Of a DNA stretch of 64,000 nt, positions 54,943 to 60,096 are shown one piece after another. The notes below the pieces were generated by a model, which searched no databases, was not told where the DNA came from, and saw only the letters and a program-made list of their open reading frames with translations. Source of the stretch: Halobacteriovorax sp. GB3 (lineage in GTDB: Bacteria > Bdellovibrionota > Bacteriovoracia > Bacteriovoracales > Bacteriovoracaceae); contig NZ_JAQSLN010000003.1 in the NCBI RefSeq assembly GCF_028649655.1, positions 620,001-684,000 of the forward strand, given 5' to 3'. The first letter of the stretch is position 1. Every line of letters begins with the position of its first letter. The translations under genes were made by a program, and so were the position numbers.

Positions 54943-55983
54943 TTAGGGTTTCTTAGCCTGGGAGAATGCGTCAACATAACTCTGACACACCGATCCAAGT
55001 CCGTTAGCAAATTCTGTCCCAAAGCTAACTTTTGAACGTCTCGCTTGTAAGTAATAAAAGAAAAAGTCACGGGCCAAAAGGTTTACCATTTCATTTTGAT
55101 CCCATTTTACGAAGACATCGAATTTCTTTTTAAGCTTCTGATTTCCATGATTGAGATGACTAAGAGCTAAAATTAAAGGACGCTCCAGATATTGCTCTTG
55201 TGAAAGTGCAGTGAATCTCTTTTGGATTTGGCACTGATTAAAATAGGCCTTTGTAAAACTTTCTTTAGAGCTGGAAGGAAGGTTTCTAAGCATTCCAGCA
55301 ATTGCAGCTTCAATGACAATAGAGTTATTAAGATTAGAAATATGATCAATTGGATTAAAGTGCAAAACGACATGATGACCATAAAAGCTTGCAACAGGAG
55401 CGTTTGCCGAAGGCCACCAAACCATGTGTATATTGATATTTGGTTTTTTAACTCCCAAAAACTTCGCAATATCTTTTAAAACGCGGTTGACTTTATCTTT
55501 TGAAAAATTCTTTTTCAATAATTTCACCTTTGACTTAAAGGCGATGGATTCTTTGTACCACTCTTTAATATTTTCTTTGAAATACTTAATGGTTTCGGCG
55601 AGAAAGAGAATATCATCCTTCTTTAGCTTTGGACTTAATTTTCTTAAAGCTTCATCAACAGATTCAGATGTATAAAAGGCCTCAGAAATAATATCGAGAG
55701 GAACATCGAGTTCAGAAAACATTGAAGTTTCGCTAGAGGGAGACTTTTGTTTAAAACGCAATCGAAAGGAACGATAGAGTTGCAGTTTTTCAATATCGCG
55801 ATCACTAAGTCCAAATTTTTTCTGCCAGGCTACGCGATATTCGCGTTTAGAGGCAGGAAACCACTCAGAGAGATTATCTAAGATAGTAAAAACATCAGCA
55901 GCTTCAGTGTGGGAGAAAAATTCACTTTTTCTAGCATGACTTGAGAAGCTGAGCAGACAGACAACAATAACCAACCACTTCAT
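54943..55983 (-). CDS. Exported protein of unknown function
   Basis: 346 residues with a signal peptide (about 1-17, Ser-His-Ala). Mostly helical and basic. A stretch near 190-240 has the strand-strand-helix order of zinc metallopeptidases, but the helix reads Val-Ile-Glu-Ala-Ala-Ile-Ala where His-Glu-Xaa-Xaa-His would stand, so if related it is inactive. It follows the 923-residue exported protein after 12 bases and is likely co-transcribed. Confidence 0.6.
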   Translation of the reverse strand: MKWLVIVVCLLSFSSHARKSEFFSHTEAADVFTILDNLSEWFPASKREYRVAWQKKFGLSDRDIEKLQLYRSFRLRFKQKSPSSETSMFSELDVPLDIISEAFYTSESVDEALRKLSPKLKKDDILFLAETIKYFKENIKEWYKESIAFKSKVKLLKKNFSKDKVNRVLKDIAKFLGVKKPNINIHMVWWPSANAPVASFYGHHVVLHFNPIDHISNLNNSIVIEAAIAGMLRNLPSSSKESFTKAYFNQCQIQKRFTALSQEQYLERPLILALSHLNHGNQKLKKKFDVFVKWDQNEMVNLLARDFFFYYLQARRSKVSFGTEFANGLGSVCQSYVDAFSQAKKP

Positions 55984-55995
55984 AAAATCCCTTTG

Positions 55996-58767
55996 TTACT
56001 GATTAGCTTCGTCAATTTGACGATTCATTTCATCTAATCGGTAGATTTTACGAGATTTTTTAGGGGCCGCAATTGTCTTTTTCTTTCTTTCAGAAGCAAT
56101 CGCCCTCTCTTTATCTTTAACGAGAACTTTCTTAAATAATGGTTTACCATCTTTTATAACAACTTTCCCATCTTCTCCAAGAATTGGCTCGTACTTATAG
56201 AAAACACCTTTTTCAACTTCTTGAAAAACCGGCTCTCCTTTAGAATTCAAAAGAGCTTGAAAGAGATCGCCATCTTGACCAATGACAATGGAATCTTTTC
56301 CAATATCAGAACGAGAAAATGAAAGAGCACTAGATTGTGTCTTTCCATTTGTGCTCGCTGATCTTGAAAAAGAGCTCTCACCAGAAGATGAAGCAGATGA
56401 ATTTGCACTTGGTGCACTTAAGCTCGAGACGCCTGAAGACCCAGAAGAAGATGCGACAGATTCATTGATCACACCAGATCCTGGAGAGCTAGAAGCTCTT
56501 GAAACTCTAGAGCTATTTGATCGAGAAGGAGAAGTTCTACTAGAACCCACTTGTTTTGTTTGCTTATTTCCTTCACTAGAATCATCATCTGATGCAATCT
56601 CGCGAGACTTTGCCATCTTATCTTCTAATCTTTTAATTTGTGCTAAAAGGGAATCAACTCTCTCGTTGCCCTCGACACTAGGAGTAGACTCTTGAGTGGA
56701 ATTTGCACTTTTTAACTGAGCTTTTAAATCCGCAATTTCTTGAGCTAAAGCATCTCGTCCATCATCTTGCCTCAGTGAATTATCCTCTTCTCTTGCACTA
56801 ATGGCCTCTTTTTTGACCATTCCATCATAAAGAGGGACAAGGGACTGGTTTTGATAATTAGTATTTTGATAATCTGGAGTTGCCATTTTAGGGGCACTTG
56901 AGTTTTGTTCAGGTGTAACCTGTGCTTTCGTTGCTGCTGACAATTTTGTATTTTGAGGTTGAACGCTCCCGACCTGTACCAGCTCTGTGTCAGGATTTAG
57001 CAACCCATTTTTTCTCATATAACTATTAGAGTTGGATGTAATATTTTTCATTTTATCATCATCATAAATAAGATCAGAAACACTTAAAGGGTCTTTACCT
57101 CTTTCAAGAGCTTGAGAAAAAGCAACGCAGTAGTACTGAGCTGTTTTAATCCCCATTTCACCAGATGAATCAACATTGATTAAATCTTCAAGTCCAGTAA
57201 GCATTGGGTTTCCATCTTTATTATAAAAATCATCAATGGATATTTTATCAAATGTTTCAATTTCACCACAGACTCTAGAAAAGTCCTTTCCAATTTCACC
57301 ACATGTACTAATTAATTCTTCAATTCCCTCATCTTCTTTAGAGAAGACATAATCAGAAAAACTCATCTCGCCAAGGTCTTGCTCAAGAATCATCTTTTCT
57401 AAGAATTCAGAAATTCCCTCATCTTCACTTCCCTCTACCATCTCTCTGTATTCTTTACCAATAATTGGACTTCTAAGGATATAGCTTGAAAGGGCCATTG
57501 CATGCTCATAATAAGGTAAATGTTCTTTTGTGATCGCTCCCATAGGGGCTGGTGTTGAATTATTTAAAAGCAAGTTTGCATCACGTTGCTTGCTAGTAAA
57601 ATCCTCTCTGAGCCTTTCTTTTTCATAAGTATCAACTCTTTTAACGAAATCGATATTCGACATTTTTTCAAAGCCTTCATTTGAAAAGGCATTGAGAAGA
57701 TGAACAGTCTCCTTCTCATTTTCAATAAATCTCAAAAGCTCTTTTTGGAGATCTTTTGGTTTTGATTTAACAATTTCTGCATACTCAGAGCTATCTTTTA
57801 ATTTCTTCAGAGCTTGTTCAATATTACTATCGACGATTGTGAGAAGTGGTCGAGAAGCGTTTTCAAGTTCTTTTGTACTAATATCACTCATTTCACTAAA
57901 GGTCTTTAAAGGCTTACAAAGAGATCTCGAGTTTGAATTTCTATTACAATCTCTAGCAATTTCTTTTAAGGTATTACTCACATTATTAATCGTGCTTTTC
58001 TTACAACTACTCGCTTTCAATTTTCTTTTTGAAATACCTGGAAGACACCATTGAACTTCATTAGAACTTAGGAGCTTTTTTTTCTGCTCTTTTGTTCCAT
58101 GCTCTAAATAGTAATGAATTTTTGTAAAAATTGAGACCTGCTTAGAAGTGGCACCTAAAAGGGTCTTCACTTGCATCATCGATCGTAATTTATGTGAAAT
58201 ATCATCAATTTCTTTTTTACCGATGGCCTTTTGATTCCCTTTTGAAACTTGACTTTGAATGCATGAGCAAACTTTCTCAGGAGTTGCATTTACTAAACAC
58301 ATTCCAGATTTTGAGACATCTTGAAATAATGAATTCACAGGCGCTTTTTTCGAAGATCCATTTTCACAATCAATAATGTCATCGTCCTTATAATTTTCTT
58401 CATCAAAATTGAAGGACCTTAGAGTTCCATCTTCATTTTTCTTTGTTTTAAGCTCTTCATTTACCTCAAGCGAGTTTTCACGAATTCTTTTTAAGTTTTT
58501 ATCCTCATTAAGGAATGTATCATCGTTTGCAAAACACTTTAATTTTTGAGGAATAACACCTGAGCTTGAATAATCATTCTGACACTTTGTTGGATAAAGT
58601 AAGTTCATTTCAGAAGAAGTTATTGGGCTAACCTTTTTTGTAAAAAAACTAGCATTACTTGAAGATGGAGAAGAGGATGCAGAACCACTGAGCCCACCAA
58701 CAGCATACACATGGGAGCTTAATAGTAAAAAAGATGAAATTAATAGGGTCTTAATTGTTTTTAAAAT
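55996..58767 (-). CDS. Large exported serine-rich protein, probable AUU start
   Basis: About 923 residues. The first canonical start in frame (GTG at 58710) would leave no signal peptide, but the frame stays open to 58773 and encodes a classic one, with Lys-Thr-Ile-Lys-Thr, a Leu/Ser-rich core and a Val-Tyr-Ala cleavage site. The codon placed correctly after AGGTGA (six-base spacer) is ATT at 58767-58765. The mature protein has a helical, cysteine-containing N-terminal half, a coiled coil near 695-720, a disordered Ser-rich segment near 730-800 and a charged C-terminus. No family is recognised. It is followed by another exported protein gene. Confidence 0.6.
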   Translation of the reverse strand: MLKTIKTLLISSFLLLSSHVYAVGGLSGSASSSPSSSNASFFTKKVSPITSSEMNLLYPTKCQNDYSSSGVIPQKLKCFANDDTFLNEDKNLKRIRENSLEVNEELKTKKNEDGTLRSFNFDEENYKDDDIIDCENGSSKKAPVNSLFQDVSKSGMCLVNATPEKVCSCIQSQVSKGNQKAIGKKEIDDISHKLRSMMQVKTLLGATSKQVSIFTKIHYYLEHGTKEQKKKLLSSNEVQWCLPGISKRKLKASSCKKSTINNVSNTLKEIARDCNRNSNSRSLCKPLKTFSEMSDISTKELENASRPLLTIVDSNIEQALKKLKDSSEYAEIVKSKPKDLQKELLRFIENEKETVHLLNAFSNEGFEKMSNIDFVKRVDTYEKERLREDFTSKQRDANLLLNNSTPAPMGAITKEHLPYYEHAMALSSYILRSPIIGKEYREMVEGSEDEGISEFLEKMILEQDLGEMSFSDYVFSKEDEGIEELISTCGEIGKDFSRVCGEIETFDKISIDDFYNKDGNPMLTGLEDLINVDSSGEMGIKTAQYYCVAFSQALERGKDPLSVSDLIYDDDKMKNITSNSNSYMRKNGLLNPDTELVQVGSVQPQNTKLSAATKAQVTPEQNSSAPKMATPDYQNTNYQNQSLVPLYDGMVKKEAISAREEDNSLRQDDGRDALAQEIADLKAQLKSANSTQESTPSVEGNERVDSLLAQIKRLEDKMAKSREIASDDDSSEGNKQTKQVGSSRTSPSRSNSSRVSRASSSPGSGVINESVASSSGSSGVSSLSAPSANSSASSSGESSFSRSASTNGKTQSSALSFSRSDIGKDSIVIGQDGDLFQALLNSKGEPVFQEVEKGVFYKYEPILGEDGKVVIKDGKPLFKKVLVKDKERAIASERKKKTIAAPKKSRKIYRLDEMNRQIDEANQ

Positions 58768-58842
58768 AACCGATCACCTAAGAAAAATTAATATTCCCTA
58801 GACTTTTCGACAGGTTTACCCAAATTCTTTAACTGAGAGTTG

Positions 58843-60096
58843 CTATAGCAATGTTTTTATTCGATCTAAATGACAAGAAATGGTCTTTTTAGCATATTTT
58901 ATCAGCTCTTTTGGTAAATCAGCGTAAATAATCGCCAAAATTTCATCTTCACTCCTTCCTTCTAGGTAGAGTTCCTTAATGACTTTTTCACGTTGCTTTC
59001 TATGAGAGAGTGTTTGTTTTATTTTCCAAACACCACCAAGCCCTATGCCATGTGATGGAAAAATGACTTTTGGATTTAAAGAAATGACTTTTTCCATGCT
59101 TAAAAAATACTTAGTCATATCTCCTTCTTCATCCCCTACCACCACTGTTCCAATGGTTTGAATGAGATCACTGACTATGGCAAATCTCTTCTTTGAATCC
59201 ATGATCATGAGCTGGCCTTCATCATGCCCAGGAACGGCTACAACATGAAGTTCCTCTCCTAACCACTCTCCTAGTTTCATTCCTTCAAAAGCTTCTTTCC
59301 AAGTGATTTCATCAAAGTAGTTAGCATTCCATCTTTTTTCAATTCGCTCTTTCGTATCTAAGCTTGAATAGATGGGAATATTAAACTCCTTTGCCAATAG
59401 GTTGGCCTTTTCAATATGGTCTCTATGGTGGTGAGTTAAAAAAATTGATCGCGGTTTAAATTGGGCCAGAAGTCTTTTTAATTTCCCATACTCATTTTCA
59501 TCGCAGGGGGAAGGATCAACAATGATCGAATCCTCTTTGCCAATAACAAAACAATTAGTTCGACTTGCCGGAGGGAATGTATTAGATCTTGGGAAAAGAA
59601 CAAAGAGATTTTTGAGGCTTTCTAAAATAGGTATCTCATTATCAAAGTCAATCTCTAAATGACCCAAGAACTCTGGTGAATTAATTTTATCCGTTAAAAT
59701 TTTGATTGGGGGAATTGTAATAATTTCGCCTTGATCAAATAGCTTATAAAACTCTTTGTGACTAAGCCACAGCCCCTCTTTAATTTCACCATTAAAAATA
59801 AAATCAGGTCTCTTATTAACAACAACACGATAAAAATGAGTTTCAAAGCGATAGGGATTAAAGTCCGGCGTTATTGCAATGGCCCAAGGCTCGATAGATT
59901 CAACTATTGAATCATTTAAATTAAGGCCAAGTTCTTCGTGGATTTCTCTATAAAGGGCCTCTTTTAAGTTTTCGCCTCTATCAACTTTGCCTCCAACAAA
60001 AGAGAGATAACCTGGGAAAACAGATAACTTCTCACTTCTTTTAATATAAAAGAGTTGATCTTCAAATTGGATGGCAGCGACGACGGATTTTCTCAT
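58843..60096 (-). CDS. Nudix hydrolase fused to a LACTB2-like MBL-fold domain
   Basis: 417 residues. Residues about 1-150 are a Nudix domain with the complete box Gly-Gly-Lys-Val-Asp-Arg-Gly-Glu, seven residues, then Arg-Glu-Ile-His-Glu-Glu-Leu-Gly. Residues about 170-417 are a metallo-beta-lactamase-fold hydrolase with Thr-His-His-His-Arg-Asp-His and Pro-Gly-His-Asp-Glu-Gly and a winged-helix-like C-terminus, as in LACTB2. The pairing suggests a house-cleaning enzyme acting on nucleotide or CoA-like compounds; the substrate is unknown. ATG start; no clear ribosome site beyond AGA. Confidence 0.85.
   Translation of the reverse strand: MRKSVVAAIQFEDQLFYIKRSEKLSVFPGYLSFVGGKVDRGENLKEALYREIHEELGLNLNDSIVESIEPWAIAITPDFNPYRFETHFYRVVVNKRPDFIFNGEIKEGLWLSHKEFYKLFDQGEIITIPPIKILTDKINSPEFLGHLEIDFDNEIPILESLKNLFVLFPRSNTFPPASRTNCFVIGKEDSIIVDPSPCDENEYGKLKRLLAQFKPRSIFLTHHHRDHIEKANLLAKEFNIPIYSSLDTKERIEKRWNANYFDEITWKEAFEGMKLGEWLGEELHVVAVPGHDEGQLMIMDSKKRFAIVSDLIQTIGTVVVGDEEGDMTKYFLSMEKVISLNPKVIFPSHGIGLGGVWKIKQTLSHRKQREKVIKELYLEGRSEDEILAIIYADLPKELIKYAKKTISCHLDRIKTLL

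Follow-up and report, generated by a model that had tools for sequence, protein, structure and literature searches.

To our knowledge, very few AUU starts have been proven in bacteria. Gene callers accept ATG, GTG and TTG only, so that genes beginning with AUU are truncated, and any exported products, stripped of the signal peptide, are wrongly placed in the cytoplasm. In E. coli, AUU is the start codon of infC and pcnB (PMC9410913). In S. aureus, an extended Shine-Dalgarno sequence (SD) accompanies both the AUU start of cvfC1 and the AUA start of ccpN, with expression in poor medium about 10% of that from AUG; cvfC1 is conserved among staphylococci and ccpN between S. aureus and B. subtilis, with proof of the starts from Ribo-Ret and reporters (PMC13009471). 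The pncA gene (BBE22) of Borrelia burgdorferi, for which an AUU start was proven experimentally, had been annotated 24 residues short (PMC13398362), and Streptomyces sigR has a GTC start that is repressed by IF3 (PMC5472188). Switches to AUU are reported at 1 in 61,358 from AUG and 1 in 5,080 from GUG, with none reported from UUG (PMC5622118). In vitro, Watson-Crick pairing under IF3 is needed at the first two codon positions while departures at the third position are tolerated, and fMet initiation on AUU/CAU falls as IF3 rises (PMC10158994).

We analysed a 64,000-nucleotide stretch of the genome of Halobacteriovorax sp. GB3 (hereafter the window), in which the gene of a 923-aa exported protein very probably starts, judging from its sequence context, at the AUU codon at 58767-58765 on the minus strand, with an extended SD compensating for the weak codon. 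The proposed full gene, from ATT to TAA, occupies 55996..58767 (minus strand) and is delimited by its open frame and by a full-length homologue in Bacteriovorax sp. BSW11_IV. The ORF found by a default caller is 904 aa long (55996-58710) and begins with the GTG at 58708..58710 (minus strand). Upstream of this GTG, the coordinates and translation given in the first-pass annotation proved correct: the frame is open up to 58773 and is bounded by an in-frame TGA (58776-58774, minus strand) that overlaps the SD. The open frame extended upstream in this way comprises 925 aa, with the translation SVILKTIKTLLISSFLLLSSHVYA-VGG..., that is, S-V-I-L-K-T-I-K-T-L-L-I-S-S-F-L-L-L-S-S-H-V-Y-A-V-G-G. The minus strand reads TAGGTGATCGGTT-ATT-TTAAAAACAATTAAGACCCTATTAATTTCATCTTTTTTACTATTAAGCTCCCAT-GTG-TATGCT around the start and TAGGGAATATTAATTTTTCTTAGGTGATCGGTTATTTTAAAAACAATTAAGACCCTATTAATTTCATCTTTTTTACTATTAAGCTCCCATGTGTATGCTG from 58800, and no in-frame ATG, GTG or TTG occurs in it between 58773 and 58711. 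The GTG at 58710, the first canonical in-frame start, lacks an SD (-2.7 kcal/mol), is codon 20 of the proposed gene and lies inside the signal peptide, so a gene caller would drop 19 codons, just as the first-pass annotation had anticipated, and with them the export signal.

On either side, the gene is flanked by neighbours on the same strand. A protein with NUDIX and metallo-beta-lactamase-fold parts is encoded upstream (58843..60096, minus strand), 75 nt before the ATT, and the gene of a 346-aa exported protein (54943..55983, minus strand) starts 12 nt past the stop of the large gene. Between the large gene and its neighbour no terminator was found, nor was there a promoter-like match on the minus strand between the genes.

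The 3' end of the 16S rRNA in this genome is GGATCACCTCCTTTTA, and the octamer AGGTGATC at 58779-58772 (minus strand) is a perfect 8-nt complement of this tail (GGATCACCTCCTTT). A clear SD had been noted here before, as AGGTGA; the SD is indeed present, but that motif is too short, the full one being the octamer. Genome-level comparisons rest on a 464-kb sample plus genome-wide pattern searches. Within the sample, 5 of 342 genes reach or exceed the SD duplex strength of -13.1 kcal/mol (the median being -6.6), and a contiguous SD match of at least 8 bases occurs in just 5 of 375. The aligned spacing is 8 nt for the ATT at 58767 and 5 nt for the GTT at 58768..58770 (minus strand), the sole rival in-frame codon at SD distance. 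Aligned spacings in the genome are most often 3-5 but extend as far as 10, and of the 185 genes whose SD is 5 or longer, 9 have a spacing of 8, which places the ATT on the long side. Its spacing is workable, though the earlier description of it as uniquely well spaced goes slightly too far, as the GTT sits at the more typical 5. Two further ATT codons of the frame, at 58755 and 58740, lie beyond the reach of the SD. The SD itself contains a GTG (58777-58775, minus strand), a possible decoy start whose frame closes after 8 codons. RNA folding around the start was no better than in shuffles (z 0.75), and a possible stem over the AGG, considered as a regulatory RNA structure, was dropped on that result.

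For the 399 genes of the sample (464 kb), we scored all codons ahead of the first canonical start by whether an SD, 6 bases long or longer, lies at a spacing of 3-9. Only the large exported gene and infC have an ATT there that follows an SD of 7 nt or longer. Genome-wide searches with the patterns AGGAGGT-N3-7-ATT or AGGTGATC-N1-5-ATT listed 46 places. These SD-plus-ATT patterns are not clearly commoner than in the reversed control (25 versus 52 and 21 versus 15), and their counts carry meaning solely after the frame is taken into account: just one of the 46 listed places, the ATT at 58767, begins a frame of 60 aa or more that has no canonical start in frame further upstream. A frame-blind count of SD matches of at least 7 nt was uninformative because GGTGATC is common inside genes.

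The 22 codons that begin with the ATT encode a predicted signal peptide, (M)LKTIKTLLISSFLLLSSHVYA (58702..58767, minus strand), with a positive n-region (KxxK), a hydrophobic core (Kyte-Doolittle 2.05 over 12 residues) and V-Y-A before the cut, features by which it classes as Sec type I without recourse to a trained predictor. Stop-free 22-mers with the same features make up 5e-4 of six-frame space (163/318,802), and the occurrence of a complete signal peptide ahead of the GTG at 58710 exceeds chance. The signal peptide ending in Val-Tyr-Ala that had been reported upstream of the GTG is present in full, and both its length and its ending are kept in BSW11_IV.

We built a profile from two sequences and searched it against 129 family genomes, among which Bacteriovorax sp. 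BSW11_IV (Bdellovibrionota, Bacteriovoracia) was the only other genome with a full-length homologue, at 28% identity across the full length. A single-sequence protein scan of the genome contigs gave no match, and the alignment query returned BSW11_IV only. The gene order there is the same, with the NUDIX/metallo-beta-lactamase-fold gene upstream and an exported protein of the 346-aa type downstream; further downstream, both genomes carry an acyl-CoA carboxylase and enoyl-CoA hydratase cluster (names taken from the translations, without a family search). The BSW11_IV homologue starts with TTG (L002:1369) behind its own SD, AAGGAT, and its signal peptide, (M)LKLLTHLTLIFQLILCSNVYA, is likewise exactly 22 residues long and ends in V-Y-A, which brings the TTG opposite the ATT in an ungapped alignment. 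Across these 22 codons, the two proteins share 9 of the 21 residues that follow the start, and 6 of the 9 are encoded by different synonymous codons; permuting the residues gave p = 2e-4, and agreement was poor in the other two frames. At the level of sequence, the N-terminal segment bears the signature of translation and conservation. Conservation of the signal peptide and of the ATT had been proposed as a check, and the two parts fared differently: the signal peptide is conserved in the sole full-length relative, but the ATT is not, the sister species having TTG (two genomes of the genus compared). With TTG in the relative, the ATT codon would be specific to the GB3 species or strain.

More distant large exported proteins occupy the same slot in three other genera, with the match confined to the C-terminal part or less. 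The six of them with a readable 5' end all have ATG and a signal peptide. Among the relatives examined, we found no conflicting start position and none with ATG at a different position. Wherever that side is readable in other genomes, the large protein and the 346-aa exported protein adjoin. As an observation on the slot itself, the place next to the 346-aa gene, or else following the NUDIX/metallo-beta-lactamase-fold gene, is occupied in several family genera (L059-L066) by a large exported protein of some 850-1220 aa, and this protein diverges very fast apart from possessing a signal peptide and the C-terminal segment. The 346-aa protein, which has no known family, is 57% identical in BSW11_IV versus 28% for the large protein.

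Besides its signal peptide, the large protein of GB3 has by sequence an N-terminal region that contains cysteines, a stretch resembling a coiled coil, a linker rich in Ser and, at the C terminus, the short segment VFYKYEPIL..DGKPLFKK..RKIYRLDE.NR.ID; most of the distant relatives have the C-terminal part in common. Searches of Pfam, NCBIfam and PHROGs found no family for the GB3 protein, a PDB search gave no significant hit, and its AlphaFold model, with a mean pLDDT of 34, is unusable for fold comparison. Its likeliest role would be that of a family-specific envelope or secreted protein working with its downstream neighbour.

The use of AUU in this lineage was also apparent in infC. In the infC gene of GB3, CCGGAGGTGGATTATTAGAGATAGACGT, GGAGGT is followed by a pair of adjacent ATT codons. 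Among 12 readable start regions of infC in the family, read by eye, 10 have ATT, one ATA and one ATC. By this evidence, the translation machinery of the group appears to initiate at AUU, at least on infC. The GB3 copy lies outside the window, on the minus strand at L047 5836 (G000:C3:605836), where the sequence is GGAGGTGG-ATT-ATT-AGA.

In the mechanism that we propose for the large gene, the AUU at 58767-58765 would be read as fMet by the normal initiator tRNA, with an anticodon mismatch at the third base only. The extended SD AGGUGAUC would pair with the 3' end of 16S rRNA and anchor the start region to the 30S subunit, offsetting the poor codon. Initiation at the AUU would proceed at reduced efficiency and, by analogy with S. 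aureus, the yield may be low, about a tenth of that from AUG. The nascent chain would bear the 22-residue Sec-type signal peptide, which would be cut after V-Y-A, and the product would be exported. IF3 levels could modulate initiation at this AUU.

Comparative data show switches to AUU to be so extremely rare that even a small error rate would compete with them, which makes a wrong base in the assembly a serious rival to this reading (PMC5622118). The ATT could be a miscalled base, or a nearby indel could hide a canonical start, for example the TTG that stands at this position in BSW11_IV; if TTTT or AAAAA were one base too long, the GTG at 58777 would likewise belong to the frame. That GTG, however, lies inside the SD and has none of its own, the assembly has 9 contigs and is 99.8% complete, and the 923-codon frame is intact. 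We prefer a genuine AUU mainly because the unusually strong SD (matched in 5 of 342 genes) is expected of a weak start that has been compensated but not of an error, and we regard the error as unlikely. An intact frame and an SD that is unusually strong rather than decayed speak against a recent natural mutation (TTG or ATG to ATT) that damaged the start and left a hardly translated gene heading to silence. Such damage would agree with an ATT that is not common to the sister species, and the idea overlaps with our main reading because AUU would remain the start; as an account of a failing gene, we find it very unlikely.

Two other codons of the frame might serve as the start in place of the AUU. 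The GUU at 58770, one codon upstream, has the aligned spacing of 5 that is more typical of the genome and of the family infC genes, and the GTC start of Streptomyces sigR is a proven one (PMC5472188). Paired with the initiator tRNA, it would have a first-base wobble and a third-base mismatch, two non-Watson-Crick positions set against the requirement at the first two, whereas the mismatch of AUU at the third base only is of the kind tolerated in vitro, which favours AUU over its neighbour (PMC10158994). The gap-free alignment moreover pairs the TTG of the relative with the ATT and not with the GTT, and ATT has the start role in infC of GB3; initiation at the GUU is accordingly judged quite unlikely. 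The GTG at 58710 has in its favour that it is the first canonical in-frame start, and if it were the real one the protein would not be exported via the signal peptide. It is hardly credible in that role, having no SD and falling inside a signal peptide that is conserved in a relative with a start further upstream, and signal peptides are found on the other large proteins of the same slot. We infer that initiation truly takes place at the AUU at 58767. The earlier proposal of this ATT (58765..58767, minus strand) as the probable start is thus supported by its position 3' of the SD, by the TTG of the homologue at the aligned position and by the lack of canonical starts.

The GB3 gene likely joins, by its sequence features, the short list of known AUU-started bacterial genes (infC, pcnB, Borrelia pncA and S. 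aureus cvfC1). It shares the AUU initiator with E. coli infC and pcnB, and infC in GB3 and in most of the family also has ATT behind a strong SD. In contrast to the two E. coli genes, it encodes a large exported protein and not a translation or RNA-processing factor, it has no evident feedback loop, and the sister species does not share its AUU. As in cvfC1 and ccpN of S. aureus, the near-cognate start differs from AUG at position 3 only and has an extended SD close by, but those starts are conserved and were shown by Ribo-Ret and reporters, whereas that of GB3 is proposed from its sequence. The resemblance to Borrelia pncA (BBE22) lies in an annotation that falls short because of an AUU start; the part missing there is functionally needed and belongs to the enzyme fold, as has been proven, while in GB3 it is the signal peptide. 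Streptomyces sigR offers the parallel of a GTG inside the SD acting as a decoy, taken up in its old annotation, with the non-canonical start just downstream; the codon there is GTC, and IF3 control has been shown for sigR.

The GB3 gene provides a homologue-anchored example of a probable AUU start in Bdellovibrionota, in a predatory bacterium, and fits the observation in S. aureus that near-cognate starts are paired with extended SDs. It also suggests a simple screen for near-cognate codons that follow an orphan extended SD and precede a conserved N terminus; at an SD of at least 7 bases, such a screen recovered infC and the large exported gene, with no further ATT, in 399 genes. A more speculative and rather doubtful idea is that the AUU places a large envelope or secreted protein under IF3-dependent translational control, which would tie its export to the state of the translation machinery in the predatory life cycle. 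If true, an exported protein under AUU control would stand apart from the known list, which consists mostly of regulatory and RNA-metabolism genes.
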